A DNA stretch of 64,000 nt from Verrucomicrobiota bacterium (GTDB lineage: Bacteria; Verrucomicrobiota; Verrucomicrobiia; Opitutales; Opitutaceae). Each line of letters begins with the position of its first letter. Position 1 is the first letter of the stretch. Positions 8,391-22,643 of this stretch are shown here, piece after piece. The translations under genes and the position numbers were made by a program. The stretch is taken from the NCBI GenBank assembly GCA_016222805.1, contig JACRQG010000013.1:62001-126000 (forward strand), written 5' to 3'. The notes under the pieces were generated by a model that had not been told where the DNA came from, did not search any database, and saw only the letters and a program-made list of their open reading frames with translations.

Positions 8391-9911
8391 ATGTCCAAGT
8401 CCATGAAAGCAGTTATCTTCAACAATACCGTCCTGCGGGATGGGCATCAGTCGCTCGCCGCCACGCGCATGACCACGGCGCAGATGCTTCCGGCGACCGC
8501 GCGCCTCGACGGGCTCGGGTTTGGCGCGTTGGAGACCTGGGGAGGGGCGACGATTGACGCGACGTTGCGCTTCCTGAAGGAGAATCCCTTCGACCGTCTC
8601 GACCAACTCAAGAAGGCCGCTCCGCGCACGCCGCACATGATGCTGCTCCGGGGGCAGAACATCGTGCAGTACACGAGTTTCCCTGACGATGTGGTCGAGG
8701 CCTTTGTCCGTTGTGCGGCTCGGCATGGGATGGACGTGTTCCGGGTCTTCGATGCCTTGAATGATGCCCGAAACCTCCGGACAGCGATTCGCACGGTGAA
8801 GGCTGAAGGGAAACACGCCCAAGGAGCCATCTGCTACACGACGAGTCCGGTGCACACTCCGGCCAAGCTGGCGGCGCTGGCCGACGAGTTGGTGGAACTG
8901 GGATCTGACTCGATCTGCATCAAGGACATGGCCGGGCTCCTCACCCCGCGGGTGACCCATGATTTGGTCAAAGCGATCAAGCAGCGGCACGCGATTCCGC
9001 TGATCGTACACAGCCACGACACCGCCGGTATGGCGGTGGCCTCCTATCTGGCAGCGATCGATGCCGGCGCGGATGCGATCGACACCTCGATCACTCCTTT
9101 CGCCAACGGCACCGGCCAACCTGACACGGTGCGAATGATGGCTGCCATGACCGCCCATCCCCGGGCTCCGCGTTACGACTCGGCGGTCCTGCTGGAACTT
9201 CGGAAGTACTTCGAAGGAGTGGCGACTGAACTGGCGAAGTTCATGAGCCCCGCCAACGACCGGGTGGACAGCGACGCGCTCAGCTATCAGGTGCCCGGAG
9301 GGATGTTGAGCAACTTCCGCACTCAATTGGCGGAGATGAAGATGGAGGGACGCTTCAACGATGTGATGGCGGAAGTACCGGTGGTGCGCGAGGCCTTGGG
9401 CTGGATCCCGCTGGTCACACCGACCTCGCAGATTGTGGGGACCCAGGCTGTGTTGAACGTGAAGTTCGGCCGCTGGAAGAATCTCGCGCAGGCCTCGGTG
9501 GATATCGCTCTCGGCAAGTACGGTCGCACCCCAGGGCCAATCAACCCGGAACTCCTGGCGCTCGCGCGCAAGCAATCCGGGCAGGAACCGGTGCAGGGGC
9601 GCCCGGCTGATCTTCTGGCGCCGCGGATGCCGAAGCTGCGCGAGGAATTGGCGGCGAAAGGCCTTCCCGCATCGGACGAGAATGCGGTGCTGTATGCGAT
9701 GTTCCCGCGGGAGACGGAGGCCTTCTATAAGCCGGCGCCCGCTCCCGCTGTGGCTCCGGCGCCCGCGCCTGCCGCCAACCCCGCCCCGGTCGCTGCGCCG
9801 GCCAAGGTGCCAGCGATCACGCCCGCCCCGGTGGGCAAGCGGGTCGGATCGCGGATGGTGCTTACCCTGAATCAGAAGCGTTACGAGGCACTGGTGGAGG
9901 AAATCGACTGA
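8391..9911 (+). CDS. Carboxyltransferase subunit, transcarboxylase 5S / OadA type, without biotinyl domain
   Basis: A 506-residue protein of the pyruvate carboxylase/oxaloacetate decarboxylase carboxyltransferase family. Metal-site and catalytic motifs are visible: NTVLRDGHQSLAATRM near residue 12, LETWGGAT, MLLRGQN, FRVFDALND, the carbamylated-Lys segment CIKDMAGLL, and HSHDTAG for the metal-binding His pair. It moves a carboxyl group between carboxybiotin and pyruvate/oxaloacetate. An Ala/Pro linker follows residue 445, then about 20 residues (MVLTLNQKRYEALVEEID) that match the start of the biotin carrier encoded at 17903; the Met-Lys-Met biotin site is absent. Length and layout match the Propionibacterium transcarboxylase 5S subunit. 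I start at ATG 8391; TTG 8379 and ATG 8403 are alternatives. Confidence 0.85.
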   Translation: MSKSMKAVIFNNTVLRDGHQSLAATRMTTAQMLPATARLDGLGFGALETWGGATIDATLRFLKENPFDRLDQLKKAAPRTPHMMLLRGQNIVQYTSFPDDVVEAFVRCAARHGMDVFRVFDALNDARNLRTAIRTVKAEGKHAQGAICYTTSPVHTPAKLAALADELVELGSDSICIKDMAGLLTPRVTHDLVKAIKQRHAIPLIVHSHDTAGMAVASYLAAIDAGADAIDTSITPFANGTGQPDTVRMMAAMTAHPRAPRYDSAVLLELRKYFEGVATELAKFMSPANDRVDSDALSYQVPGGMLSNFRTQLAEMKMEGRFNDVMAEVPVVREALGWIPLVTPTSQIVGTQAVLNVKFGRWKNLAQASVDIALGKYGRTPGPINPELLALARKQSGQEPVQGRPADLLAPRMPKLREELAAKGLPASDENAVLYAMFPRETEAFYKPAPAPAVAPAPAPAANPAPVAAPAKVPAITPAPVGKRVGSRMVLTLNQKRYEALVEEID

Positions 9912-9920
9912 GGTTTTTTC

Positions 9921-12029
9921 ATGAGCTCAAGTACTGCCGAACACCTTTTCGCTGGTTTTTCTCCAGCCTCGGATGCCGATTGGCGTCGTGCCGCCGAGGA
10001 ATCTCTGGAGGGAGCGCCGTTCGAGAAAAAACTCGTCACGCGGACCGCGGAGGGAATCGACCTCCAGCCAATCTACTCTCGCACCGACGGCGAGAAGCTC
10101 GGTCCCGATTCCTTGTGGCCCGGGCTCCCACCGTACGTCCGCGATGCCCGGCCCCTGGGGAGTCGGGCTGGCGGTTGGCTCGTGTGTCAGGACCTCGGGG
10201 CCCTGCCTCCCGACGAATTCAACGCCGCCCTTCGCGATGCACTGGGCCGTGGTCAAAACGCCGTGGTGCTGCCCTTGGACTCCGCCACCCGCCGCGGTAG
10301 TGATCCCGCCATCGCGCAACCTTCCGAGGTCGGTGATATCGGACTTTCGCTTTCGACCCTGGAAGACGCGGACCGGGCGCTTCGAGGCGTGGAACTGGGC
10401 GCCGTGCCGGTCTTCGCTTCCGCAGGAATCGCGGCATTGGAGGTGACCGCCCTGCTTTCGGCCTGGATGAAACGCCAGGGAAAAACCGGGGCCGCTCTTC
10501 ATGGCGGGGTGCTGGGAGACCCGCTCGGCGAGTGGCTGCGGGCGGGCCGTCTGCCCATGGACCTCGGGCTGGCTCTGGACGACCTCGGCACGTTGACGTC
10601 TTGGGTGCAGCGGGAGGGCTGGAACCTTCGCACCATTGGTGTCGACGCGGCAGCCTGGTCTGATGCCGGGGCCCATGCGGTCCAGGAGCTCGCGTTCGGG
10701 CTTGCCACTGGCGTGGCCTACGTCCGGGCGATGCAGGAACGAGGGCTGGAAGTCGGGGTTTCCGCCCCGCGGGTGCTGTTCACCTTCGGCTTGGGTTCAA
10801 ACCTCTTCCTCGAGGTGGCCAAGTTGCGGGCCGCCCGGTTGGTCTGGGCCCGTGCCATGCAGGTGGCGGGGGGCGGCCCGGAAGCGCAGCGGCTGGAGTG
10901 TCACGGCCGCACAACGCGCTGGAACAAAACCGTCCTCGATCCCCACGTGAACCTGTTGCGCACGACCACGGAGGCCTTTGCCGGCGTCATCGGCGGCTGT
11001 GCCGGCCTGCAGGTCGGCGCCTTCGATGATTGCTACCGGACCTCGGATGACTTCTCGCGCCGTCTGGCCCGCAACATCCAGATTATCCTCGCGGAAGAAT
11101 GCCAGCTTGGCCGAGTGGTCGACCCTGCCGGCGGCTCCTGGTATGTCGAGACCCTCACGCGACAGCTGGCCGCCAAGGCTTGGGGGCTCTTCCAGGACAT
11201 CGAAGGTCGTGGCGGGATGTTTGCAGCCGTGAAGGCGGGATACCCGCAGGCCCTCGTGGAAAAGACGGCGGCAGATCGCATCGCCGCCGTGGAGGGGCGG
11301 CGCGACGGGGTGATTGGCACCAACCTTCACCCCAATCTCCGGGAGCGGATCCCACCGGCGGGGGGCCGTACGACCGCCCCGCGTCCGTCGGCGTTGGGTC
11401 GGACCGACGCGGTGGAGCGCAGCGCGTTCGCGCACCTCGCCACTTGCGGGCGCGAGTCCTTGCCGGAGGCGCTGCAGGAGGCGTTTCGGGATGGGGTGAC
11501 CCTGGGGGCCGCGGTGCTCGCGGTGGATCGGGAGCGCAGCCCTTCGCCCGAGGTCAAACCGTTGGTCGCACGGAGGAGGGCCGAACCCTTCGAAGCCTTG
11601 CGCCGCCGGTCGGAAGCCTGGCTCCAGCGCACGGGTGGAAGGCCCAAGGTCTTCCTCGCCGGCGTGGGTCCGCGAAAACAACATGCCGCCCGCCACGACT
11701 TCTCGCAGGCGTTCTTTGCCGCGGGAGGATTCGAGCCGGTGGCGGGCCGGGGCCTGGATACCGCCGAGACGGCCGCCAAGGCTGCCTTGGAGTCCGGTGC
11801 GCCCATCGTCGTGCTCTGCTCGACTGACGACACCTATCCCGCCCTCGTGCCGGTGTTCGCGGCCGCCCTGAAGGCGGCTCCGAAGCCACCGGTGGTGGTG
11901 CTGGCGGGCCTGCCCGCCTCCCCGGAGCTGCAGCAGCAGTTCAAGGCTGCCGGCATCGACGAGTTCATCCACCTGCGTGCCAACTGCGCCAAGCTCCTGT
12001 CAACCTTCCAGGACCAGCTGGGCCTCTGA
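9921..12029 (+). CDS. mutA: Methylmalonyl-CoA mutase small (beta) subunit
   Basis: A 702-residue partner of the catalytic mutase subunit in the heterodimeric form of the enzyme. It has the mutase TIM-barrel (LFTFGLGSNLFLEVAKLRAARLVW, WNKTVLDPHVNLLRTTTEAF, VDPAGGSWYVE) and a C-terminal flavodoxin-like domain. That domain lacks the DxHxxG cobalamin-binding His, where the large subunit has it; the equivalent segment reads GPRKQHAARHDF. The subunit is therefore structural, as in other MutA proteins. It begins 9 bases after the carboxyltransferase stop. The first GAGG available for ribosome binding comes from the stop codon region. Confidence 0.93.
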   Translation: MSSSTAEHLFAGFSPASDADWRRAAEESLEGAPFEKKLVTRTAEGIDLQPIYSRTDGEKLGPDSLWPGLPPYVRDARPLGSRAGGWLVCQDLGALPPDEFNAALRDALGRGQNAVVLPLDSATRRGSDPAIAQPSEVGDIGLSLSTLEDADRALRGVELGAVPVFASAGIAALEVTALLSAWMKRQGKTGAALHGGVLGDPLGEWLRAGRLPMDLGLALDDLGTLTSWVQREGWNLRTIGVDAAAWSDAGAHAVQELAFGLATGVAYVRAMQERGLEVGVSAPRVLFTFGLGSNLFLEVAKLRAARLVWARAMQVAGGGPEAQRLECHGRTTRWNKTVLDPHVNLLRTTTEAFAGVIGGCAGLQVGAFDDCYRTSDDFSRRLARNIQIILAEECQLGRVVDPAGGSWYVETLTRQLAAKAWGLFQDIEGRGGMFAAVKAGYPQALVEKTAADRIAAVEGRRDGVIGTNLHPNLRERIPPAGGRTTAPRPSALGRTDAVERSAFAHLATCGRESLPEALQEAFRDGVTLGAAVLAVDRERSPSPEVKPLVARRRAEPFEALRRRSEAWLQRTGGRPKVFLAGVGPRKQHAARHDFSQAFFAAGGFEPVAGRGLDTAETAAKAALESGAPIVVLCSTDDTYPALVPVFAAALKAAPKPPVVVLAGLPASPELQQQFKAAGIDEFIHLRANCAKLLSTFQDQLGL

Positions 12030-12044
12030 TCGCCGCCGACCACC

Positions 12045-14225
12045 ATGAAATTTCCCGATTACACCACGATTCCCCTCGAGACCGGCGCCGCTACCGGCGC
12101 GGGTGCTTCCGACTGGCTCGCCGCCGCCCGGGCCAGCGCCGGCGGACCGGACGCCCTCGGCGACTGGCAGACGCTGGAGCAGATTCCGGTCAAGCCCGTC
12201 TACACCGCGGCCGATCTGCGCGACGTCGGGCATCTCGGCTTCACCGCCGGGATTGCGCCGTATCTGCGCGGGCCCTACGCGACCATGTACGTCCTGAAGC
12301 CCTGGACGGTCCGGCAGTATGCCGGCTTCTCCACCGCCACGGAGTCCAACGCCTTCTACAAGCGCAATCTCGCAGCCGGGCAGATGGGGTTGTCGGTGGC
12401 CTTCGACCTCGCCACCCACCGCGGCTATGACAGCGACCATCCGCGCGTGGTGGGCGATGTCGGCAAGGCCGGCGTCGCGGTCGACTCCGTGCTGGACATG
12501 CAGACCCTGTTTGCCGGCATCCCGCTGGATCGGATCAGTGTCTCGATGACGATGAACGGTGCCGTGCTGCCCGTGCTGGCCTTCTACATCGTGGCCGCGC
12601 TGGAGCAGGGCGCGACCCTGGAGCAGCTTTCGGGCACAATCCAGAACGACATCCTGAAGGAGTACATGGTGCGGAACACCTACATCTACCCGCCCGCCCC
12701 TTCGATGCGGATCATCGCGGACATCTTCGCCTTCACCTCGCAGAAGATGCCGAAGTTCAACTCGATTTCGATCTCCGGCTATCACATGCAGGAGGCGGGG
12801 GCCACCGCGGACCTCGAGCTCGCCTACACCCTGGCGGACGGCCTCGAGTACCTGCGCACGGGCGTGAAGGCCGGCATCGACATCGATGCGTTCGCCCCGC
12901 GCCTTTCGTTCTTCTGGGCGCAGGGCAAGAACCTCTTCATGGAGGTGGCCAAGATGCGGGCCGGACGGCTGCTCTGGGCCAAGCTCGTGCGGCAGTTCAA
13001 TCCGAAGAACCCGAAGTCGATGGCCCTGCGCACGCACTCCCAAACCTCGGGATGGTCGCTCACCGAACAGGACCCGTACAACAATGTCGCGCGCACCTGC
13101 ATCGAGGCGATGGCGGCGGCGATGGGGCACACGCAATCGCTGCACACCAACTCCCTCGACGAAGCGATCGCCCTGCCGACCGACTTCTCCGCGCGGATCG
13201 CCCGCAACACGCAATTGTACCTCCAGGCCGAGACCGGGATCTGCAGCGTGGTCGATCCGTGGGGTGGCAGCTACTACGTGGAGCGCCTCACCGATGAACT
13301 CGCCCGCAAGGCCTGGGCGCACATCGAGGAGGTCGAGAAACTCGGCGGCATGGCCAAGGCGATCGAGACCGGCCTGCCCAAGCTGCGCATCGAGGAGGCC
13401 GCGGCCCGGCGCCAGGCGATGATCGACTCCGGCGAGGAGACCATCGTGGGCGTCAACAAGCACCGGCTCGAGAAGGAGGCGCCGATGGAGATTCTCGAGG
13501 TGGACAACACGGCGGTGCGGGAGGCGCAGATCAAGCAGCTCCAGAAACTCAAGGCCGAGCGCGATCCGGCGGCCGTGCAGCGGTGCCTGGCGGCGCTCAC
13601 CGCGTGCGCCCGCTCTGGCGAGGGCAACCTGCTCGCCCTCAGCATCGACGCCGCCAAGGCGCGGGCGACCCTCGGCGAGATCTCCGATGCGCTCGAGGTT
13701 GTCTTCGGCCGCTACCAGGCGCAGATCCGCTCGATCTCCGGTGTCTACCACCGGGCCTTCGCCCGCCACGACGACGTCGCCAAGGTGCGGGCGATGACCG
13801 ATGCCTTCGCTGAGCGGGAAGGGCGGCGTCCGCGCATCCTGATCGCGAAACTCGGCCAGGACGGCCACGACCGTGGGGCCAAGGTGGTCGCCACGGCGAT
13901 GGCCGACATGGGGTTCGATGTCGATGTCGGCCCGCTGTTCCAGACGCCCGAGGAAGCGGCGCGCGACGCGGTCGAGAACGATGTGCACATCGTGGCGATG
14001 AGTTCCCTCGCCGCGGGCCACAAGACCCTGCTGCCCCAGCTGGTGAGCGAGCTGAAGCGCCATGGACGCGAGGACATCCTCGTGGTCGCAGGCGGCGTCA
14101 TCCCCGCCCAGGACTATGCGTTCCTTTACGAGCACGGCGCCGCGGCCGTGTTTGGCCCGGGAACGCCGATTCCCCATTCGGCCGCGATCCTGCTGGAAAA
14201 ACTCGGGGCGACTCCGGTCGCCTGA
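12045..14225 (+). CDS. mutB: Methylmalonyl-CoA mutase large (alpha, catalytic) subunit
   Basis: A 726-residue adenosylcobalamin enzyme that interconverts succinyl-CoA and (R)-methylmalonyl-CoA. The barrel motifs are complete ([62 protein letters not shown]). The C-terminal B12 domain has DGHDRG at residues 606-611, placing the cobalt-ligand His at 608, plus the SSLAAGH and GGVIPAQDY nucleotide-loop segments. The length is typical. It starts 15 bases after mutA with CCGACCACC before the ATG and no Shine-Dalgarno sequence. With the epimerase and MmdA-type subunit it forms the succinate-to-propionate route, or the reverse. Confidence 0.95.
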
Positions 14226-14244
14226 CTGCCGCCGCACCGACCCC

Positions 14245-15354
14245 GTGATCCCTCCCTCGACACCGCCGCGCCCGGACTGGGTGCCTGACGGAGCGGGGGA
14301 GGAATTTGCCACGCGCATCGTGCCCGGCACGCCGACCCGCGCACCGGATCGTCGGCCGGTGCGCCGCCGCGCCACGGACAACGTCGAGCGCCTGGCTGCG
14401 GACCTCCGCGCCGGCGATCGCGGAGCGCTGGCCCGGGGAATCACCCTGGTGGAGAGCCGGGCCGCGATGCATCGCGCCGCGGCGGAAAACCTGCTTAACG
14501 CCCTTACTCCGCACTCCGGCGGAGCGCTTCGCGTGGGGGTGACCGGTGCGCCCGGGGCCGGAAAGAGCACGTTCATCGATGCCCTCGGCACGCGGCTGTG
14601 CACCGCGGGCAGGCGCGTGGCGGTCCTTTCGGTCGACCCAAGCAGCCCGGTGTCGCACGGCAGCATCCTGGGGGACAAGACCCGCATGGAAAACCTGTCG
14701 CGTCAGCCTTCGGCATTCATCCGCCCATCGCCGAGCGGCGGCGAACTCGGGGGCGTGGCCCGGCGGACGCGGGAGACCATCGTCCTCTGTGAGGCCGCGG
14801 GATTCGAGATCGTCATCGTCGAGACCGTGGGCGTCGGGCAAAGCGAAGTCCTGGTGCGTGGGATGGTGGACTGCTTCCTGGTCCTGCTGCTGGCCGGAGC
14901 AGGGGATGAACTGCAGGGGATCAAGAAAGGTATCCTCGAACTGGCGGACATCCTCGCCGTGAACAAGGCCGACGGAGACAATCGGGCACGAGCGGAGGCG
15001 GCCCGGCGGGAGTTTAGCCGCGCGTTGCATTACCTCTCGGGGCCGGAAGGGTCCTGGCGCCAGACCGTGCTCGCGTGTTCCGCCGCGACGGGGGAGGGCA
15101 TCCCCGAGGTTTGGGAAACCGTGGAGAAGTTCTTTTCTCACGGAAAGCGCAGCGGAGAATTCGCGGAGCGGCGGCGCGAGCAGGTGCTGGCGTGGTTGGG
15201 TGCCCTGCTGGATGAAGGATTGCGTGAAGCGTACGCCAGCCGACGAGGGGTCGCGGCGTTGCGAGCAGAATTGGAGTCGCAAGTGGGAGCCGGGCTGTTG
15301 CCGGCGCCCGAAGCCGCGCGGCGCTTATTGGCGGCAGCAGGATTTGCGCAGTGA
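14245..15354 (+). CDS. meaB: Methylmalonyl-CoA mutase-associated GTPase MeaB
   Basis: A 369-residue G3E-family GTPase that guards cobalamin loading and protects methylmalonyl-CoA mutase from inactivation. Walker A GAPGAGKST is at residues of about 102-110. VLSVDPSSPVSHGSILGDKTRM, PSPSGGELGGVA, IVETVGVGQSEV and the base-specificity NKADG follow in family order. The GTG start at 14245, 19 bases after mutB, adds about 40 Arg/Pro-rich residues before the conserved N-terminal helix (ERLAADLRAGDRGALARGIT). A start nearer 14318 would give a more usual length (about 330-345). The position right after mutB is classical. Confidence 0.93.
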   Translation: MIPPSTPPRPDWVPDGAGEEFATRIVPGTPTRAPDRRPVRRRATDNVERLAADLRAGDRGALARGITLVESRAAMHRAAAENLLNALTPHSGGALRVGVTGAPGAGKSTFIDALGTRLCTAGRRVAVLSVDPSSPVSHGSILGDKTRMENLSRQPSAFIRPSPSGGELGGVARRTRETIVLCEAAGFEIVIVETVGVGQSEVLVRGMVDCFLVLLLAGAGDELQGIKKGILELADILAVNKADGDNRARAEAARREFSRALHYLSGPEGSWRQTVLACSAATGEGIPEVWETVEKFFSHGKRSGEFAERRREQVLAWLGALLDEGLREAYASRRGVAALRAELESQVGAGLLPAPEAARRLLAAAGFAQ

Positions 15355-15451
15355 AGATTTTCTACTGGAAGCGCAGGGGTTCGCAAAATCTGCGGAGTTC
15401 GCTGCTCCCCGCCCCCCTATACTCGCCGATCGGCCAGGAGCCATTTTCGCC

Positions 15452-15874
15452 ATGATCACATCCATCGACCACTTGGGAATCGCCGTGAAGTCTCTCGATG
15501 AGGCGGTTCCGCTCTATGAAAAAGCGCTCGGTCTGCGCTGCCTCGGCCGTGAAGAGGTGGCAGCGCAAAAGGTGCGCACCGCGTTCTTTGACGCGGGAGG
15601 AGTGCACCTGGAACTGCTTGAGCCGACGTCGCCGGAAAGCACCATCGCCAAGTTCATCGCTGACCGTGGGGAAGGCATTCATCATGTGGCGTTTCGCACG
15701 GATGACATCGGCGCCCAGTTGAAACAGGCATCAGGCGCCGGGGTGCGGCTGATCCATGAACAACCCTTCGAGGGCGCAGCCGGCAAGCTGGTCGCGTTTC
15801 TCCATCCCAAATCCACCCGCGGCGTCCTGACTGAATTCTGCGCGGTCAAGCCCGGCGCAACGAGCGCCCACTAA
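15452..15874 (+). CDS. mce: Methylmalonyl-CoA epimerase
   Basis: A 140-residue vicinal-oxygen-chelate protein that interconverts the (R) and (S) epimers of methylmalonyl-CoA, linking mutase and carboxyltransferase stereochemistry. It has two beta-alpha-beta-beta-beta halves. The metal ligands expected for the family are visible: His7 (IDHLGIAV), the HH pair at 77-78 (GIHHVAFRTDDI) and Glu128 (VLTEF). The ATG at 15452 is preceded by no Shine-Dalgarno sequence; the longer frame upstream overlaps meaB and is not conserved. Length is standard for the family. Confidence 0.93.
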   Translation: MITSIDHLGIAVKSLDEAVPLYEKALGLRCLGREEVAAQKVRTAFFDAGGVHLELLEPTSPESTIAKFIADRGEGIHHVAFRTDDIGAQLKQASGAGVRLIHEQPFEGAAGKLVAFLHPKSTRGVLTEFCAVKPGATSAH

Positions 15875-15889
15875 CCCGGAGGTCTTTCC

Positions 15890-17443
15890 ATGGCTATTTC
15901 AACCACGCTCCTGAACGAACTTTCCGGCCGTCGCCAAACGGCCCTTGCCGCCGGGGGAGAGGATAAACTCAAGGCCCGCGCCGAGAAGGGCCTGATGAAC
16001 GCCCGCGAACGCCTGGTGGCACTATTCCAGCCCAACACTTTCATGGAGTGGGGGATGCACGCCGACCATGACTGCCATGATTTCGGTTTGGAAGGGAAGT
16101 CCTTCCCGGGCGACGGCGTGGTCACGGGTGTCGGCTATGTCGACGGCCGACCGATGGCCGCCTTCAGCCATGACTTCACGGTCGGGGGCGGGGCGCTGGG
16201 GCGCATCCACTCGAAGAAGATCTGCGACCTCATGGATTATGCCATGAAGGCGGGGATGCCGGTGCTGGGCATCAACGATTCGGGAGGGGCCCGAATTCAG
16301 GAAGGCGACGAATCGCTCTCCGGCTACGGCCAGGTCTTCTTCCGCAATGTGCTCGCCTCAGGGGTCATCCCGCAGATCTCGATTATCGCGGGCCCGTGTG
16401 CCGGCGGGGCGGCCTACAGCCCGGCCCTGACGGACTTCATCATCATGACGAAGAAGAACGCCAACATGTTCATCTGCGGCCCGGACGTCATCAAGGCGGC
16501 CACCGGGGAGACCGTGACGATGGAGCAGATTGGCAGCGCGGCGGCGCACGCCTCCGTGAGCGGCAACATCCACTTCGTGGCCGAGGATGACCGGCACGCC
16601 CTCGAAATCGCGCGCAAGCTCTTCTCGTTCCTTCCGTCGAACAATATCATGGACCCGCCGCACCGGCCGACGCCCTCGCTCGACCTCTCGCCGGACCCGG
16701 GCATGAACGACCTCGTGCCCGCCGACGGCAAGACGCCGTTCGACATCCATGCGGTGATTCAGCGCCTGGTGGATGGCGGCGATTTCCTCGAGGTGCAGAT
16801 GGACTGGGCGAAGAACCTGGTCGTGGGCTTTGCCCGTATCCAGGGCATCGTCTGCGGCATCGTTGCCAACCAGCCGATGGTCAAGGCAGGCACGCTCGAC
16901 ATCGATTCATCGGACAAGGGCGCCCGGTTCATCCGGTTCTGCAACGTCTTCAACATTCCGGTGGTCACGTTGGTGGACATCCCCGGATTCATGCCGGGCA
17001 TGGCGCAGGAGCGCGGTGGCATCATCCGCCACGGCGCCAAGATGCTCTTCGCCTATGCGTCGTGCACGGTGCCGAAACTGACGGTGATTCTGCGGAAGGC
17101 CTACGGTGGGGCGTATCTCGCGATGTGCAGTGCCGACATGCGCGCCGACGTCGTCTATGCCTGGCCCACCGCCGAAATCGCGGTCATGGGTGCGGAGGGG
17201 GCGGTGAAGGTCCTCTACAAGAAGGAAATTGCCGCAGCCAAGGACCCGAAGGCAAAGGAGGCCGAGTATGTCGCCGAGTATCGGGCCAAGTTCGCTTCCC
17301 CGTACGCCGCGGCGCGCAAGGGAATGATCACCGACATCATCGAGCCCTCCCAAACCCGGGCAAACCTCGCCATGGCCCTGCGAAACACGCTGTCGAAACG
17401 CGAGACCCGGCCGCCCAAGAAGCACGGCAACATCCCGCTCTAA
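15890..17443 (+). CDS. mmdA: Methylmalonyl-CoA carboxyltransferase/decarboxylase alpha subunit (MmdA, transcarboxylase 12S, PccB family)
   Basis: A 517-residue crotonase-like carboxyltransferase that moves CO2 between (S)-methylmalonyl-CoA and carrier biotin. It shows the family segments GGGALGRIHSKKICDLMDYA, INDSGGARIQEG, the oxyanion-hole GPCAGGAAYSPAL, VDIPGFMPGMAQE and KAYGGAYLAM. Sequence alone cannot separate the propionyl-CoA carboxylase beta, transcarboxylase 12S and MmdA roles. Context favours decarboxylase/transcarboxylase: membrane beta subunits and a stand-alone carrier are next to it and no biotin carboxylase is present. This is one of the few starts in the block with a strong ribosome site (CGGAGGTCTTTCC-ATG). 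Confidence 0.92.
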   Translation: MAISTTLLNELSGRRQTALAAGGEDKLKARAEKGLMNARERLVALFQPNTFMEWGMHADHDCHDFGLEGKSFPGDGVVTGVGYVDGRPMAAFSHDFTVGGGALGRIHSKKICDLMDYAMKAGMPVLGINDSGGARIQEGDESLSGYGQVFFRNVLASGVIPQISIIAGPCAGGAAYSPALTDFIIMTKKNANMFICGPDVIKAATGETVTMEQIGSAAAHASVSGNIHFVAEDDRHALEIARKLFSFLPSNNIMDPPHRPTPSLDLSPDPGMNDLVPADGKTPFDIHAVIQRLVDGGDFLEVQMDWAKNLVVGFARIQGIVCGIVANQPMVKAGTLDIDSSDKGARFIRFCNVFNIPVVTLVDIPGFMPGMAQERGGIIRHGAKMLFAYASCTVPKLTVILRKAYGGAYLAMCSADMRADVVYAWPTAEIAVMGAEGAVKVLYKKEIAAAKDPKAKEAEYVAEYRAKFASPYAAARKGMITDIIEPSQTRANLAMALRNTLSKRETRPPKKHGNIPL

Positions 17444-17460
17444 CCACGCTGTCCGCCGAC

Positions 17461-17493
17461 GCCGGTCCGCCCTTTCCCGTTGGGCGGACCGGC
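17461..17493 (+). promoter_or_regulatory. Perfect 12-bp hairpin between mmdA and the membrane-subunit genes
   Basis: GCCGGTCCGCCC (17461-17472) and GGGCGGACCGGC (17482-17493) are perfectly complementary around a 9-base loop, 18 bases after the mmdA stop and 22 before the next ATG. No T-run follows, so it is not a normal intrinsic terminator. A partial-termination, RNA-processing or 3'-end-stabilising element that sets the ratio of soluble to membrane subunits is plausible. Confidence 0.6.
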
Positions 17494-17514
17494 GCGGTCC
17501 ACCAAACCTCAACC

Positions 17515-17877
17515 ATGAACTCCGTCTTCCTCGCCACCGTGGGTCAGCCGCTTTTCGGCAGTATCTGGCTGGCGCTGCTCGCGGTCCTCGGCCTGGTGGC
17601 ACTGCTGCTGCTCGCCGTGGCGTTGGCCGGCCGCTGGCTCGCCGCGACCCATCCGGATTCACCCAAAGTGGCGGCCCCGGAGCCGATCCTCGCCCCGGGC
17701 ATTTCCCCGGAGACCCTCGCCATCATCGCCAGCGCGGTGAACGTCACCGTCGGCCCCAACGCCCGCGTGCGCGCCGTCGAGGTCGTGCCGACACCGGCGC
17801 CCTCGGTCGAGGCCCTGATGCTGCAATGGAGCCTCGAGGGCCGGCGACAAATCTACACCTCCCACAAAGTCCGCTGA
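17515..17877 (+). CDS. Gamma-type subunit 1 of a biotin-dependent sodium-pump decarboxylase (OadG-like)
   Basis: A 120-residue protein with one N-terminal membrane helix (residues of about 16-42, SIWLALLAVLGLVALLLL) and a small C-terminal domain. The domain starts ISPETLAIIASAVN and ends WSLEGRRQIYTSHKVR. The last motif recurs in the protein at 20081 and resembles the C-terminal W...GR...R signature of larger OadG-family proteins, which anchor the carboxyltransferase to the beta subunit. It lies between the MmdA-type gene and the biotin carrier gene, as gamma/delta subunits do in methylmalonyl-CoA decarboxylases. No Shine-Dalgarno sequence is seen (CCTCAACC-ATG). The assignment rests on architecture and context. 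Confidence 0.65.
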   Translation: MNSVFLATVGQPLFGSIWLALLAVLGLVALLLLAVALAGRWLAATHPDSPKVAAPEPILAPGISPETLAIIASAVNVTVGPNARVRAVEVVPTPAPSVEALMLQWSLEGRRQIYTSHKVR

Positions 17878-17902
17878 CACTCACATTCACACCTTTCGCG
17901 TC

Positions 17903-18307
17903 ATGAAGAAACTAAGAGTTACCATCGAGGGCAAAGCCTACGAAGTGCTGGTCGAGTTTCTCGACCAGGAGACGACTGCCACCGCGCCCACGCCGGCGGC
18001 GGCTCCCTCCGCTCCGAGACCCGCCGCCAGCGTGACACCGGCCGCCGCCGTCCCGGCCCCGGTGGCACCGCCGCCGGCCGCCCCCAAGGCGGGTGCCGGT
18101 GCGGTCGTGAGCCCACTGGCCGGCAAACTCGTGTCAATCGATGTCAAGGTCGGCCAAAGCGTCCAGGAAGGCGCCCAGGTCGCGACCATCGAGGCCATGA
18201 AGATGAACACCTACATCTACGCGCCGAAGTCTGGCCGCGTGGTCGAGGTCCTGGCCAATCCCGGCGACGCGGTCGAGGAAGGCGCCGCGTTGATGCGCCT
18301 GGAATAG
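17903..18307 (+). CDS. Biotin carboxyl carrier protein (transcarboxylase 1.3S / MmdC type)
   Basis: A 134-residue mobile biotin carrier. Residues 1-22 form the N-terminal strand pair (MKKLRVTIEGKAYEVLVEFL), 25-65 are an Ala/Pro swinging linker, and 66-134 are the biotinyl barrel with EAMKM; the biotinylated Lys is residue 100. It is the only biotinyl domain in the block, so it probably serves the 5S-type and MmdA-type carboxyltransferases and both beta subunits. Its N-terminal segment is mirrored at the C-terminus of the 5S-type protein (9855-9911). A biotin ligase is encoded 3.6 kb downstream in the same block. Confidence 0.93.
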   Translation: MKKLRVTIEGKAYEVLVEFLDQETTATAPTPAAAPSAPRPAASVTPAAAVPAPVAPPPAAPKAGAGAVVSPLAGKLVSIDVKVGQSVQEGAQVATIEAMKMNTYIYAPKSGRVVEVLANPGDAVEEGAALMRLE

Positions 18308-18334
18308 GCCGCATTCCTCCACCCAACCTCCACC

Positions 18335-18454
18335 ATGAAGACCGCCATCGTGCAGGCGATCGTGATGTATGGGATCGCGTTTGTGATCTCCATGCTCGTG
18401 GCCCTGCTGATCAAGGGACTCTACCTCCTCGTCCGCCGAATCACGACACCCTGA
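18335..18454 (+). CDS. 39-residue single-helix membrane protein, possible minimal gamma subunit
   Basis: A very short gene (MKTAIVQAIVMYGIAFVISM..., ending LVRRITTP) between the biotin carrier and the first beta subunit. Almost the whole protein is one membrane helix (residues 5-33) followed by a basic tail, so the C-terminus should face the cytoplasm. The position directly before an oadB-type gene and the helix-plus-basic-tail design are those of short OadG proteins. The start context CCAACCTCCACC-ATG is like those of its neighbours. Homology cannot be proved at this length. Confidence 0.6.
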   Translation: MKTAIVQAIVMYGIAFVISMLVALLIKGLYLLVRRITTP

Positions 18455-18580
18455 GCTCCGCGCGAGGCCAGCCTCCGGCGGCGGACGTGCCGATTCGACC
18501 GTGCCGTCCGTCCGCCCGCGCCCCACGCCAACCGCCTCGCCTCCGGGAGCCCCGGAATCGTTCCCGGACCTCCAACTTCG

Positions 18581-19840
18581 ATGACCTTTTCCAACTTCCT
18601 CGATCTCTTCCAGGGGATCACGACGCTGATTGCCTCCCAACCCGCCGTGCTGGCCGCGCGGCTGGGCCTGATGCTGCTCGGCATCGTGCTGGTGTATCTC
18701 GGCAAGAAGGGCGTGCTCGAACCGCTGCTGATGATTCCGATGGGACTCGGAATGGCCGCGGTGAACGCCGGCGTGCTCTTCCTCGATCCCACGACCGCCG
18801 CGGCGGTGACCGAATCCGCGGCGACGGGCGGGCCGGCCGTGCCGGGCACGCTCTTCATGGCGCCGCTCGTGCAGAAGACCGACAACCTGATGTACGTCCT
18901 GCAGATCGATTTTCTGCAGCCCATCTATACCTTTGCCTTCAGCAACGGCCTGATTGCCTGCCTGGTGTTCATGGGCATCGGCGTGCTGCTCGATGTCGGC
19001 TTCGTGCTGGCACGGCCGTTTCTCAGCATGTTTCTCGCCCTGTGCGCCGAATTCGGGACAGTGGCGACCTTTCCGATCGCGGTGGCGATGGGTCTCAACT
19101 ACCGCGAGGCGGCTTCGATTGCGATGGTGGGCGGGGCCGATGGCCCGATGGTGCTGTTCACCTCGCTGACGCTCGCCAAGGAGCTGTTCGTGCCCATCAC
19201 GGTGGTGGCCTATTTGTATCTGGGTCTCACTTACGGAGGCTATCCCTACTTGATCCGGCTGCTCGTGCCGGCGAAGCTCCGGGGCCTGAAGATGCCGGAT
19301 CGCCCCGTGATGAAGATTACCTCCGATGAGAAACTGGCGTTCGCCGTGGTCGGCTGCACGGTGCTGTGTCTCCTTTTCCCCTCCGCCGCCCCGCTTTTCC
19401 TTTCGCTCTTCGTCGGGGTCGCCGTGCGCGAGGCCGGCCTGAAGTACTTCGTGGCGGTGATTGACGGGCCGATCCTCTACGGGGCGACCCTGTTTCTCGG
19501 GCTGACCCTCGGGGTGCTGTGCGAGGCGTCGACGATCCTCAACCCCAAGGTCCTCATCCTCCTCCTGCTCGGCATCCTCTCGCTGCTCCTGTCGGGCATC
19601 GGCGGCCTCATCGGCGGCTACCTCGCCTATTATTTCAGCGGGCGGAAGATCAATCCGGTGATCGGGATCGCCGCCGTCAGTTGCGTGCCCAGCACCGCCA
19701 AGGTGGCGCAGAAGGAAGTCTCCAATGTCGTTCCCGACAGCATCATCCTGCCCGAGGCCCTCGGGGCGAACATCTCCGGCGTGATCACCACCGCCATTCT
19801 GACCGGCATCTACGTGACGCTGGTGCCGCTGATGAAATGA
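18581..19840 (+). CDS. Sodium-pump decarboxylase beta subunit 1 (divergent OadB/MmdB/GcdB family)
   Basis: A 419-residue polytopic protein (about nine or more membrane helices) that should accept carboxybiotin and couple its decarboxylation to Na+ export. The intramembrane Asp is at 187 in GGADGPM, the Tyr equivalent to Klebsiella OadB Tyr229 at 213, and NPVIGIAAVS supplies Asn358, Gly362 and Ser367. The Arg expected 16 residues after that Asn (OadB Arg389) is Lys374, and the Thr of ADGPT is Met. The YSYMALVP helix of canonical members is replaced by YLYLGLTYGG. It is therefore a divergent paralogue of the beta subunit at 20651. Residue equivalences to OadB come from memory of the literature. 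Confidence 0.85.
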   Translation: MTFSNFLDLFQGITTLIASQPAVLAARLGLMLLGIVLVYLGKKGVLEPLLMIPMGLGMAAVNAGVLFLDPTTAAAVTESAATGGPAVPGTLFMAPLVQKTDNLMYVLQIDFLQPIYTFAFSNGLIACLVFMGIGVLLDVGFVLARPFLSMFLALCAEFGTVATFPIAVAMGLNYREAASIAMVGGADGPMVLFTSLTLAKELFVPITVVAYLYLGLTYGGYPYLIRLLVPAKLRGLKMPDRPVMKITSDEKLAFAVVGCTVLCLLFPSAAPLFLSLFVGVAVREAGLKYFVAVIDGPILYGATLFLGLTLGVLCEASTILNPKVLILLLLGILSLLLSGIGGLIGGYLAYYFSGRKINPVIGIAAVSCVPSTAKVAQKEVSNVVPDSIILPEALGANISGVITTAILTGIYVTLVPLMK

Positions 19841-20049
19841 AGCGACTCGCGCCCTTGAACACCCCGGCCTGGCGGCTGGGCCTGGCGCTGGCCGCCGCGG
19901 GCGTACTGCTGGCGCGGCTGGTGGCGCCACGGTTCTCCTCGTCGGCCCAACCCGGGCTGGCGCTGGTCGGGGAACTCCTCGCCCTCGCCGGTCTGGCGGT
20001 GATTGCGGCTGGGGTCAGCCGACGAATCCGCGGCGGCGCCCCGACCTGA
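19837..20049 (+). CDS. 70-residue two-helix membrane protein of unknown function
   Basis: The ATG overlaps the stop of beta subunit 1 (ATGA), a strong sign of coupled translation. Two hydrophobic segments (residues 13-30 and 41-60) are joined by a short polar loop (PRFSSSAQPG), and the basic tail SRRIRGG suggests both ends are cytoplasmic. No family is recognised. Its place between the two pump modules suggests an accessory or assembly subunit of the membrane complex. Confidence 0.6.
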   Translation: MKRLAPLNTPAWRLGLALAAAGVLLARLVAPRFSSSAQPGLALVGELLALAGLAVIAAGVSRRIRGGAPT

Positions 20050-20080
20050 TGCGACGACGAGCCTCTCCTTCTCTTCTGCC

Positions 20081-20482
20081 ATGACGCTGAACCTGAGTCT
20101 TCCCCTCGCGGCTCCCGCCCCGATCGCCGGAGCTCCGGCGATCGGTCTGACCGATGCCCTGTTGTTGCTGGTATTCGCCGGCCTGTTGGTGGCGATCTAC
20201 CAGTTGAACCAGGTGCTGCAGCGGTTGCGCGCCCTCGACACCGCGCGCGCCGGGACGTCGAGCGCTCCTGCGGCTCCCACGTCCTCCGCGCCGGTACCGG
20301 TGGCGTCGCGGGCCGATGACGCTCCGGTTCCGCCCGAGTTCGTCGCGGCGATCGCGGCCGCCTGTCACCTGACCCTGGGGCGACCCTTGCGCATCGTGTC
20401 GATCGTCGATGAGGCAGAGCAGAAGCAGGTGTGGTCGCTCGAGGGGCGCCGGCAGATTTTCGCTTCGCACCAAGTGCGCTGA
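20081..20482 (+). CDS. Gamma-type subunit 2 of a biotin-dependent sodium-pump decarboxylase (OadG-like)
   Basis: A 133-residue protein with one membrane helix (residues of about 25-46, TDALLLLVFAGLLVAIYQL), a Ser/Ala/Pro linker (65-85), and a C-terminal domain. The domain begins VPPEFVAAIAAACHLTLG and ends WSLEGRRQIFASHQVR. That ending is nearly identical to the protein at 17515, so the two are paralogues. PEFVAAIAAA...IVSI plus W..GRR is the usual pattern of the soluble part of long OadG-like subunits. It precedes a minimal OadG and the canonical beta subunit, so it probably belongs to the second pump module. Confidence 0.65.
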   Translation: MTLNLSLPLAAPAPIAGAPAIGLTDALLLLVFAGLLVAIYQLNQVLQRLRALDTARAGTSSAPAAPTSSAPVPVASRADDAPVPPEFVAAIAAACHLTLGRPLRIVSIVDEAEQKQVWSLEGRRQIFASHQVR

Positions 20483-20499
20483 ACCCAATTTGACCCCTG

Positions 20500-20658
20500 A
20501 TGAGCACGACCACTTTTGGCCTCACCCTGTTGATTGTCGGCATGGGCGGCACCCTGGTCACCCTGGCGGTCATCGCCGGCTGCCTGCGCCTGTTGACAAA
20601 GCTGTTCCCCGCCGAGAATTCGGACTCAGATCGGAGTGGAGGCCCCGGCCATGCTTGA
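20500..20658 (+). CDS. 52-residue OadG-like gamma subunit
   Basis: A short membrane protein (MSTTTFGLTLLIVGMGGTLV..., ending SGGPGHA). The N-terminal helix with the pattern GLTLLIVGMGGTLVTLAVI and the following CLRLLTKLFP match the start of OadG proteins, which form the membrane anchor between alpha and beta subunits of Na+-pumping decarboxylases. It overlaps the beta subunit 2 start by 8 bases, so the two are probably translationally coupled. The polar C-terminal tail is short and lacks the usual soluble extension, which may be supplied by the separate protein at 20081. Confidence 0.7.
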   Translation: MSTTTFGLTLLIVGMGGTLVTLAVIAGCLRLLTKLFPAENSDSDRSGGPGHA

Positions 20659-21817
20659 CGCGATCCTTTCCGGTCTGGGCGGATTGGGAGCAGGTGCCCA
20701 GTACTTGCTGGCCCAAGGCGGGCCCAACGTGATCATGCTGGCCGTCGCCGGGGTGATGTTCTACCTCGCAATCGCGAAGGACGTGGAGCCGCTCCTGTTG
20801 CTGCCGATCGCCTTTGGTTGCGTGCTGGCCAACCTGCCCTTGAGTGAGCTGATGGGAGAGGGCGGCGTCCTGCGCACGCTCTACAACTTCGGCATCGGCA
20901 ACGAACTCTTCCCGCTCCTGATTTTCGTCGGCATCGGATCGATGACTGATTTCACGCCGCTGTTGGCCAACCCGCGGCTGCTGTTGTTTGGCGCGGCGGG
21001 CCAGCTGGGCATCTTTTTCACCCTGATCCTCGCCCTGGCGCTGGGGTTTTCCAAGGAGGAGGCCGTGTCGGTGGCGATGATTGGAGCCTGCGACGGACCG
21101 ACCGTGATCTACGTCTCGAACCTCTTTGCCGACCTGCAGAAGATCCCGACGGCGATGGTTGGGGCGCTGGCCGTGGCGGCCTACTCGTACATGGCCCTCG
21201 TGCCGATCCTCCAGCCCCCGATCATGCGGCTCCTCACGACCGAAAAGGAGCGGTCTGTGAAGATGCCGAGCCCGAAGGGCAAGGTGTCGCGGACGGCGTT
21301 GGTGGTGTTTCCGCTGCTCGTGACTGCGGTGACCGGCCTGATCGCCCCGCAGGGCCTGCCGTTGATGGGCATGATCATGTTGGGGAACTTCATGAAGGTC
21401 AGTGGAGTGGTCACCCGTCTCACCAAGGCCAGCGAGAACGAAATTGCCAACATTTCCACGTTGTTCCTCGGCCTCGCGATCGGCGGCACGATGAACGGCC
21501 ACGAGTTCCTCAAATGGCACACGCTGCTCGTCTTTGGCCTGGGGCTGGTGGCGATCATCGTCGACACCGCCGGCGGCATCCTGCTCGGCAAGGTCTGGTA
21601 CTGGCTGTCCGGCGGCAAGGTGAACCCCCTGCTTGGCGCCGCGGGCATCTCCGCGTATCCCATGGCGGCCCGGCTCGTGCAGACCGAGGGCCAGCGGTGG
21701 AACAAGCACAACTTCCTGCTCATGCATGCGATGGCGGCCAACACCGGCGGGCAGGTCGGCTCAGTGATGGCCGCGGCGATCATGCTCTCGGTGCTGAAGG
21801 GCCTCGGCATCCTCTAG
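20651..21817 (+). CDS. Sodium-pump decarboxylase beta subunit 2 (canonical OadB/MmdB/GcdB)
   Basis: A 388-residue polytopic Na+-translocating beta subunit. All residues I expect for the pump are present: Asp148 in CDGPTVIYV, Tyr180 in AAYSYMALVP, QPPIMRLLTT on the following loop, and Asn325, Gly329, Ser334 and Arg341 in the NPLLGAAGISAYPMAAR motif. It decarboxylates carboxybiotin while exporting Na+. I start at ATG 20651 inside the end of the preceding OadG-like gene; the GTG at 20636 would add five residues. It differs strongly from beta subunit 1, so this is an old duplication or two different origins, not a recent copy. Confidence 0.9.
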   Translation: MLDAILSGLGGLGAGAQYLLAQGGPNVIMLAVAGVMFYLAIAKDVEPLLLLPIAFGCVLANLPLSELMGEGGVLRTLYNFGIGNELFPLLIFVGIGSMTDFTPLLANPRLLLFGAAGQLGIFFTLILALALGFSKEEAVSVAMIGACDGPTVIYVSNLFADLQKIPTAMVGALAVAAYSYMALVPILQPPIMRLLTTEKERSVKMPSPKGKVSRTALVVFPLLVTAVTGLIAPQGLPLMGMIMLGNFMKVSGVVTRLTKASENEIANISTLFLGLAIGGTMNGHEFLKWHTLLVFGLGLVAIIVDTAGGILLGKVWYWLSGGKVNPLLGAAGISAYPMAARLVQTEGQRWNKHNFLLMHAMAANTGGQVGSVMAAAIMLSVLKGLGIL

Positions 21818-21863
21818 TCTGCCCGGACCCAGTCCGGTTTCCCCATTCTTTCCCCTCTTCGCC

Positions 21864-22643
21864 ATGACCACTCGCAACCAGGGAGACTTGCTTGATGCCG
21901 AAACCCGCGTGCCGGGTTGGAGCGTGAAGTTCTATGATCGCGTGGAATCCACGCAGCAACTCGCGCGCGGGCGCCCGGTGTGGTCCGCCGTGGTGGCGCG
22001 GGAGCAGACGGCGGGACGCGGGCAGGCCGACCGCACGTTCACCTCGGATCCGGGCGGGTTGTATGTCACCGCGGTGCTCCCGTATGCGGGTGACCCGATG
22101 GCGAGCCGGGGGTTTGCGCTGGCCGTGGGCTGGGCGGTGCGCGAGGCCCTGCTGGAATTCGAGGTCGGGGATCTGCGGTTGCGCTGGCCCAATGACCTGA
22201 TGGTCGGGGATCGAAAGGTGGGCGGGATCCTGGTGGAACAGGATGGTCCCGGATCCTTGTTGGTGGGAATCGGCCTCAACGTGACGAACCATCCTTGGCT
22301 GGCCGCCCCGGAGCTCGCCGCCATCGCCGGACGGCTCGCGGATACCACTCCCTACGGTCGGCTGCCCGAGGCGGCGGTGCTGGCGAGCTCCGTGCTGGTC
22401 GCGATTCGGGCTGCGCACGAGGTTTTTTCGACCCGGCGGCTCGCGGGCTTCACCGCGATTGCCAACAACTGCTGGGGTGCGCCGCGCGAGGTCGAGCTGG
22501 AGCCGGTGGCCGGTATCGGCCTGCCGCTTACACGGGGACGCTTCATGGGGATCGATGCCGAAGGCAACCTCCTGCTCGAGGGGGCGGCGAAGGAGCGGGC
22601 CCGGATTCCCTCGCACCACGTCGCGCGCCTGCGGGAACGTTGA
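21864..22643 (+). CDS. birA: Biotin--protein ligase
   Basis: A 259-residue enzyme that makes biotinyl-AMP and attaches biotin to the carrier Lys. The biotin/ATP loop reads TAGRGQADR, where many BirA proteins have GRGRRGR, so the Arg-rich part is partly changed. RWPNDLMVGDRKVGGILVE supplies the catalytic Lys region and GIGLNV the next motif. There is no N-terminal DNA-binding domain, so it is a monofunctional ligase and not a repressor. Location at the end of the decarboxylase block suggests it is dedicated to, or co-expressed with, the carrier at 17903. Confidence 0.9.
   Translation: MTTRNQGDLLDAETRVPGWSVKFYDRVESTQQLARGRPVWSAVVAREQTAGRGQADRTFTSDPGGLYVTAVLPYAGDPMASRGFALAVGWAVREALLEFEVGDLRLRWPNDLMVGDRKVGGILVEQDGPGSLLVGIGLNVTNHPWLAAPELAAIAGRLADTTPYGRLPEAAVLASSVLVAIRAAHEVFSTRRLAGFTAIANNCWGAPREVELEPVAGIGLPLTRGRFMGIDAEGNLLLEGAAKERARIPSHHVARLRER

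Follow-up and report, generated by a model that had tools for sequence, protein, structure and literature searches.

The Na+-translocating methylmalonyl-CoA decarboxylase (MMD) of Veillonella and Propionigenium comprises a 12S/MmdA-type carboxyltransferase, a separate biotin carrier, a beta subunit and gamma/delta-type subunits, all encoded in one operon; in the Na+-translocating oxaloacetate decarboxylase (OAD, OadABG), carboxyltransferase, association and biotinyl domains reside on a single alpha chain that is accompanied by an OadB-type beta and an OadG-type gamma subunit. The transcarboxylase of Propionibacterium combines 5S, 12S and 1.3S subunits, and a predicted operon of Geobacter bemidjiensis for 5S, 12S, a hypothetical protein and a biotin protein (Gbem_0334-0337) has been read as a transcarboxylase as well (PMC2996986; the passages devoted to this operon name no pump). 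The enzyme of Xylanibacter is described as a decarboxylase, not a transcarboxylase (PMC11575231), and Pelotomaculum is assigned a propionyl-CoA:oxaloacetate transcarboxylase encoded in the mmc cluster (PMC6046458), at least in the sections of these papers that deal with them. Here we analyze a block of genes, positions 8391-22643 on the plus strand of a 64,000-nt stretch of Opitutaceae DNA (hereafter the window, whose numbering is used throughout), in which the decarboxylase and transcarboxylase schemes treated as alternatives in the Geobacter, Xylanibacter and Pelotomaculum work are combined. A literature search on Opitutus terrae together with propionate and methylmalonyl-CoA found no paper.

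The interpretation that we favor, and regard as reasonably probable judging from the sequences, is that an MMD and an OAD have merged around one carrier into a membrane-associated CO2 relay that would also allow transcarboxylation, the latter following from the sharing of the carrier. The 12S subunit would take CO2 from (S)-methylmalonyl-CoA onto the carrier; the 5S subunit would pass it to pyruvate or, alternatively, take CO2 from oxaloacetate; and either of two beta subunits, beta1 or beta2, would release CO2 and export Na+. The 5S protein and the carrier, which bear the same short association hairpin, would dock on a helix in the cytoplasmic part of gamma1 or gamma2, and 12S would be held on the W..EGRR tail of these gammas. 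Such a set of parts would then support methylmalonyl-CoA:pyruvate transcarboxylation, decarboxylation of either acid with pumping of Na+ and, in reverse, an ATP-free carboxylation of propionyl-CoA. We infer the contacts, fluxes and directions of this relay, and any switching of it; the alternation between carbon saving and Na+ export that the preliminary description of this DNA had proposed is, likewise, putative.

The block consists of the following genes:

8391..9911, plus strand: 5S-type carboxyltransferase, PycB/OadA-like, without a biotinyl domain; the last ~20 residues resemble the N-terminal strand of the carrier
9921..12029, plus strand: mutA, methylmalonyl-CoA mutase small subunit
12045..14225, plus strand: mutB, methylmalonyl-CoA mutase large subunit with B12 domain
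14245..15354, plus strand: meaB GTPase; start codon uncertain
15452..15874, plus strand: methylmalonyl-CoA epimerase, glyoxalase family
15890..17443, plus strand: 12S/MmdA-type acyl-CoA carboxyltransferase
17515..17877, plus strand: gamma1, with N-terminal hydrophobic helix, PETLAIIASAV stretch and WSLEGRRQIYTSHKVR tail
17903..18307, plus strand: stand-alone biotin carrier, with N-terminal strand, Ala/Pro linker and EAMKM-bearing biotinyl domain
18335..18454, plus strand: sm1, a 39-aa single-helix small membrane protein that stays beside beta1 in relatives
18581..19840, plus strand: beta1, MadB-like carboxybiotin decarboxylase / Na+ pump subunit
19837..20049, plus strand: orf70, a 70-aa membrane protein that stays downstream of beta1 in relatives
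20081..20482, plus strand: gamma2, with hydrophobic helix, PEFVAAIAAA stretch and WSLEGRRQIFASHQVR tail
20500..20658, plus strand: sm2, OadG-related 52-aa small subunit (NF040909)
20651..21817, plus strand: beta2, OadB/MmdB-like carboxybiotin decarboxylase / Na+ pump subunit
21864..22643, plus strand: birA, biotin protein ligase; a second BirA-type gene lies on another contig

The block is tightly packed, with overlaps between neighboring genes of at most 8 nt and gaps of at most about 126 nt. Family scans recovered the genes of the preliminary description in their places on the plus strand; that inventory was right in what it named but overlooked the three small membrane proteins (39, 70 and 52 aa). 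All MMD components are present (MmdA, carrier, beta and a membrane gamma) and, unlike in the known MMD, there are two subfamilies of beta, two gammas, three small proteins and a 5S. The OAD likeness lies in a 5S of the OadA/PycB type with an association-type strand and in beta2 and sm2, which supply the OadB-type beta and the OadG-type gamma; the window 5S differs from an OAD alpha chain in that the biotinyl domain would come from a separate protein that also serves 12S. With the transcarboxylases of Propionibacterium and G. bemidjiensis, the block shares 5S, 12S, a stand-alone carrier of the 1.3S type and the lack of a biotin carboxylase in the block; it differs from that of Propionibacterium in its pumps and gammas and in its 5S.

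As noted before, the 5S protein has no biotinyl domain: a Pfam scan identifies only HMGL-like and PYC_OADA. It matches the model for pyruvate carboxylase subunit B (PRK09282) with 563.9 bits, above the cut-off of 402, the OadA model with 551.8 bits, under the cut-off of 756.5, and the Propionibacterium-type 5S equivalog NF008984 with 475.9 bits, under the cut-off of 827; by family score, it is thus closer to PycB/OadA than to the Propionibacterium 5S. In an alignment to 1rqb, as far as the positions are visible, it keeps the D of LRDGHQS, the K of IKDMA and the H-x-H, which we take to be the metal site. Its C-terminus ends ...SRMVLTLNQKRYEALVEEID, and the N-terminus of the locus carrier starts MKKLRVTIEGKAYEVLVEFLD. 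When a profile of carrier N-termini was scored against 39 5S tails (three duplicate rows, one cut 5S fragment and the pyruvate carboxylase and OadA rows were left out; the over-long frame L066, the start-cut L070, and L194, L195 and L196 from genomes without a detected beta were included), the median was 9.8 bits and 30 of the 39 reached at least 5 bits. Only 1 of 780 shuffled tails and 1 of 468 internal windows did so, and 24 of the 39 tails beat every control, which rules out noise as the origin of the tail match. In an AlphaFold model of the window 5S (mean pLDDT 83.8), residues 455-483 form a disordered linker, and strands 487-493 and 496-502 form a tethered hairpin (block pLDDT 62-82). 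Given that the tail repeats the carrier strand and that the carrier match in PycB (5ks8) begins at residue 498, immediately ahead of the biotinyl domain, the window 5S looks like a PycB/OadA truncated after the association strand. The account of OAD in PMC7274780, in the parts relevant here, places the OadG tail on the association domain of alpha and, citing Balsera 2011, has the region equivalent to the 5S tail bind the gamma tail. The hairpin may also serve the assembly of 5S with the carrier.

The genome of the window is a draft assembly of 51 contigs, 95.6% complete. It contains six biotin/lipoyl domain matches, namely AccB, the locus carrier, pyruvate carboxylase, two of lipoyl type and one of efflux type. 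The matches on contigs C19 and C28 were rejected as further biotin carriers on account of their motifs ELESDKS and ELETDKI, which we read as lipoyl-type, and the one on C25, which looks like an efflux adaptor, was rejected too. Hence, no second carrier compatible with the block was found in this draft genome, the only other biotin carriers being AccB and pyruvate carboxylase. Two proteins contain PYC_OADA (pyruvate carboxylase and the block 5S), and there is one 12S; the other two Carboxyl_trans matches are weak (81 and 59 bits), as from AccD and AccA. The reported lack of a biotin carboxylase holds for the block but not for the genome, which has two such domains, in AccC and in the single-chain pyruvate carboxylase. 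No propionyl-CoA carboxylase was found by the family searches of the same draft; 12S was rejected as a subunit of such an enzyme because it has no biotin carboxylase partner other than these two. The biotin ligase family has three matches: a BirA-like one on C34, the locus BirA and a weak one on C51. The sole match for an ATP synthase c subunit (L160, G000:C38:203501-203665) carries an in-frame TAG in the loop (RNPGA*GK), which could be a sequencing error or real.

The two OAD_beta proteins of the block (355 and 457 bits, with a Pfam cut-off of 31.6) are indeed different, as had been claimed together with the single carrier. Beta1 scores best with the model of MadB, a component of the Na+-translocating malonate decarboxylase (TIGR03136, 468.3 bits), but stays below the cut-off of 596.9, and the block contains no other malonate decarboxylase genes; beta2 passes TIGR01109 (391 bits against a cut-off of 190.6). 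Compared with the OadB of 6iva, both keep E40, D203, N373, G377, S382 and N412, of which, in the relevant part of PMC7274780, D203, S382 and N412 matter for Na+ and E40 for decarboxylation. At OadB positions R258, R304, N311, N315, R389 and S419, beta1 has M, Y, G, Y, K and T, respectively, and beta2 differs from OadB at R258 and E298. In a tree built with FastTree, in which long branches were flagged, the two betas lie in two main, deeply separated clades, so that beta2 is not a mere duplicate of beta1. The window beta2 groups with those of G233, G249, L049 and L264, and the O. terrae-type beta2 lies elsewhere in the tree. Since two separate OadB lineages occupy the beta2 slot, the block seems to have gained its second pump at least twice, from different sources.

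Of the two gamma-like proteins reported earlier, gamma1 matches no Pfam family and gamma2 produces only a sub-threshold match to OAD_gamma (20.4 of 27 bits); what identifies them is position, helix and the W..EGRR tail that both share with gammas of related loci. After merging of duplicates, a W..GR tail is present in 54 of the 74 distinct loci with 12S, in none of the six genomes with a fused OadA/5S beside beta and in 7 of the 55 loci with neither in view (the raw counts with duplicates are 59/79 and 0/7, and the merged table lists G233 twice, as L214 and L244, so that seven rows are six genomes). In G233, the gamma2 frame reads KQVWP*EGRR*LFSS, that is, the motif is legible but broken. From the commonness of the tail in loci with 12S and its broken or missing state in relatives in which 12S was not found, we infer that the tail docks 12S; its retention in gamma1 and gamma2 of the window is an argument that 12S serves both pumps. 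Among the small proteins, sm2 matches NF040909 with 41.8 bits (cut-off 25), orf70 gives a sub-threshold DUF202 match, and sm1, orf70 and sm2 occupy equivalent positions in some relatives, where sm1 and orf70 are tied to beta1. In L049 (G164), the gamma frame shows no transmembrane helix, and a membrane protein gene, presumably TerC-like, at about 9870-10960 separates gamma2 from the small subunit; L045 has a similar gene after beta2.

Gene order in relatives, some of whose record or metagenome-assembled genome names may be wrong, was compared as the preliminary description had proposed, and the same order recurs, which excludes chance as an explanation of the arrangement. The parts are known and their combination is unusual, not unique to the window, as relatives share the part list, and 5S, 12S and a biotin protein are described together in the G. 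bemidjiensis operon; the preliminary description had known of no described complex with the full list. Two betas stand beside one detected carrier in 8 loci: the window, L044, L045/L061, L063/L257, L064/L277 and L247, all six in the family of the window, plus L070 (record titled Lacunisphaera) and L065 (record titled Verrucomicrobiota). A 5S gene lies in the same block in 6 of the 8; Opitutaceae bacterium EW11 has its 5S on another contig, and the flank of L065 showed none. Pump sets lie in opposite orientations in L084, L090 and L126.

Two genomes that share the genus label of the window genome, G233 (98% complete, 6% contamination) and G249 (93% and 1%), yielded no match in the family search for 12S, which covered the window genome and 31 others. 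In both, a fused 5S-carrier gene, gamma2, sm2 and beta2 are consecutive, with birA next in G233 (in G249, gamma2 and sm2 were assigned by position and by eye, and the contig begins inside the 5S gene). With the biotinyl domain on the 5S chain, as in OadABG, this row is, by its gene content, an OAD set, and removal of mutA to gamma1 and of sm1 to orf70 from the window order would yield the order of G233. A complete carrier is fused to 5S in 14 of the 129 rows of a 5S tree (P0018, P0019, P0020, P0024, nine of the P0082 group and G233), forming three clades amid unfused 5S. This tree is a quick search without bootstrap; fusion changes state four times, one change being P0103, the tail of which looks frameshifted, and the fusion would be the derived state. 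In a comparison with 19 stand-alone carriers, the fused carrier of G233 comes closest to that of the window (65% over 133 aa).

Sharing of the carrier, as proposed before, is thus supported by the lack of a second compatible carrier, the 5S-carrier fusions, the repeated strand and the loci with two pumps and one carrier. The accompanying reading of the block as a transcarboxylase with pumps needs amendment: given the family scores of 5S and the OAD set of G233 and G249, the block is as much MMD plus OAD. More tentatively, we envisage bivalent gammas that would bind 12S on the W..EGRR tail and the carrier and 5S through the hairpin, so that two transferases and two pump types would form one interchangeable membrane complex interconverting methylmalonyl-CoA, pyruvate/oxaloacetate, CO2 and the Na+ gradient without ATP. 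This extension is possible but doubtful, because two genomes tested for 12S underlie the gamma-tail evidence and because some of the 5S proteins with a tail belong to genomes in which no beta was detected.

Several observations weigh against the merged MMD and OAD relay. Beta1 differs from OadB at R304, N311, R389 and S419. A Na+ economy finds no support in the window genome, which gave no Rnf/Nqr match and in which the second helix of the c subunit (AEGLG) is without what we take to be the usual Na+ motif. A W..GR gamma is missing in 20 of the 74 12S loci, several of these being Bacteroidetes/Ignavibacteria, with three filter misses among the 20 (the window's own L002 and L009, and L049); among the six tail-less genomes, 12S was sought in G233 and G249, the other four being loci of 3-4 kb, and G233 is the genome with 6% contamination. 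The carrier profile gives less than 5 bits with 9 of the 39 5S tails. Tails are present also in G023, G076 and G112, genomes without a detected beta, in two of which, G112 (99% complete) and G076 (77%), 5S is isolated, so that the hairpin does not by itself show 5S to dock on a pump. A carrier for each beta, the arrangement named earlier as refuting a shared carrier, does not occur in the window but does in L069 and L075, where a carrier precedes each beta. Finally, sharing of the carrier could be sequential, with no single complex.

The best surviving alternative, unlikely in our estimate, is that two separate enzymes borrow one carrier, 12S, gamma1 and beta1 constituting an MMD and 5S, gamma2, sm2 and beta2 an OAD, with transcarboxylation of no importance. 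This agrees with the uninterrupted OAD row in the two genomes of the same genus without a found 12S and with the blocks L046, L060 and L068, where beta1 follows 12S-gamma1-carrier and no beta2 is present; beta1 is the lone pump in these three, which have 5S, and in L062, where no 5S was seen. However, beta2 of the window type is the only pump beside 12S and carrier in L049 and L264, both with 5S (in L251 and L253, also with 5S, the lone pump is the O. terrae-type beta2), the window gamma2 keeps the tail that is broken or missing in G233 and G249, and a carrier charged by both transferases would carry out transcarboxylation unless the two were kept apart.

An improbable alternative is a soluble, Propionibacterium-like transcarboxylase of 5S, 12S and carrier beside pumps that take only a small spill-over. 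The G. bemidjiensis operon, predicted to encode a transcarboxylase (PMC2996986, operon passages), is a precedent, and across 177 genomes of the order (OAD_beta in 72, biotin-less 5S in 67, both in 63, beta only in 9, 5S only in 4, neither in 101; counts not corrected for relatedness, with G143 and G173 counted as 5S on partial frames and G111 as beta on a fragment), there are four in which a 5S was found but no beta, with the tail retained in at least three of them. In G023, one of the four, the contig breaks off within 12S, so that a gap could account for the missing beta; G143, too, is a contig end. Against this alternative stand the presence of beta in 63 of the 67 5S genomes, which also counts in favor of the relay, the placement of the carrier gene among those for gammas and small membrane proteins, and the higher scores of 5S against PycB/OadA than against the 5S model. 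Among 15 sampled genomes of the family, 7 have both and 8 neither, again uncorrected for relatedness; of the 9 beta-only genomes, 6 have an OadA-length frame (607-629 aa), with a biotinyl motif in four (L014, L016, L023, L025).

The assimilatory direction, in which oxaloacetate and/or the Na+ gradient would drive carboxylation of propionyl-CoA in place of the missing propionyl-CoA carboxylase, fits the reversibility of the reactions, the failure to find that enzyme in the draft genome and the Pelotomaculum route of propionyl-CoA:oxaloacetate transcarboxylation, but is highly improbable in our judgment, as direction cannot be read from sequence and related Opitutaceae are reported to ferment sugars to propionate.

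Some observations concern the spread of these genes. In G091, beta1, beta2 and 5S lie on three contigs (L054, L055, L153), so that the parts need not be clustered. Records bearing the names of several other phyla, subject to the same doubt about names, have MadB-like betas next to 12S and carrier. In L116 (record titled Propionivibrio), a biotin-less 5S, 49% identical, is located near a carrier and beta1, its tail scoring only 0.9 bits; by this locus, the combination of 5S, carrier and beta1 may extend beyond Verrucomicrobia. An Opitutaceae-like block (beta1 80% identical) is found on the contig of L067, which goes under the name Akkermansia muciniphila and is probably mislabelled or misbinned.

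If one carrier indeed serves two transferases and two pumps, as in the relay favored here, transcarboxylase and Na+-pumping decarboxylases would be interchangeable modules rather than alternative enzymes. With two sequence tags, the 5S hairpin and the W..EGRR tail of the gammas, it becomes possible to test how enzymes of this family assemble, and the second tag might provide a means to tell gammas that work with 12S from others. For the organism, the energy yield of the propionate pathway, in the form of Na+ export, would be tradable against its carbon yield, in the form of oxaloacetate from pyruvate, without ATP.

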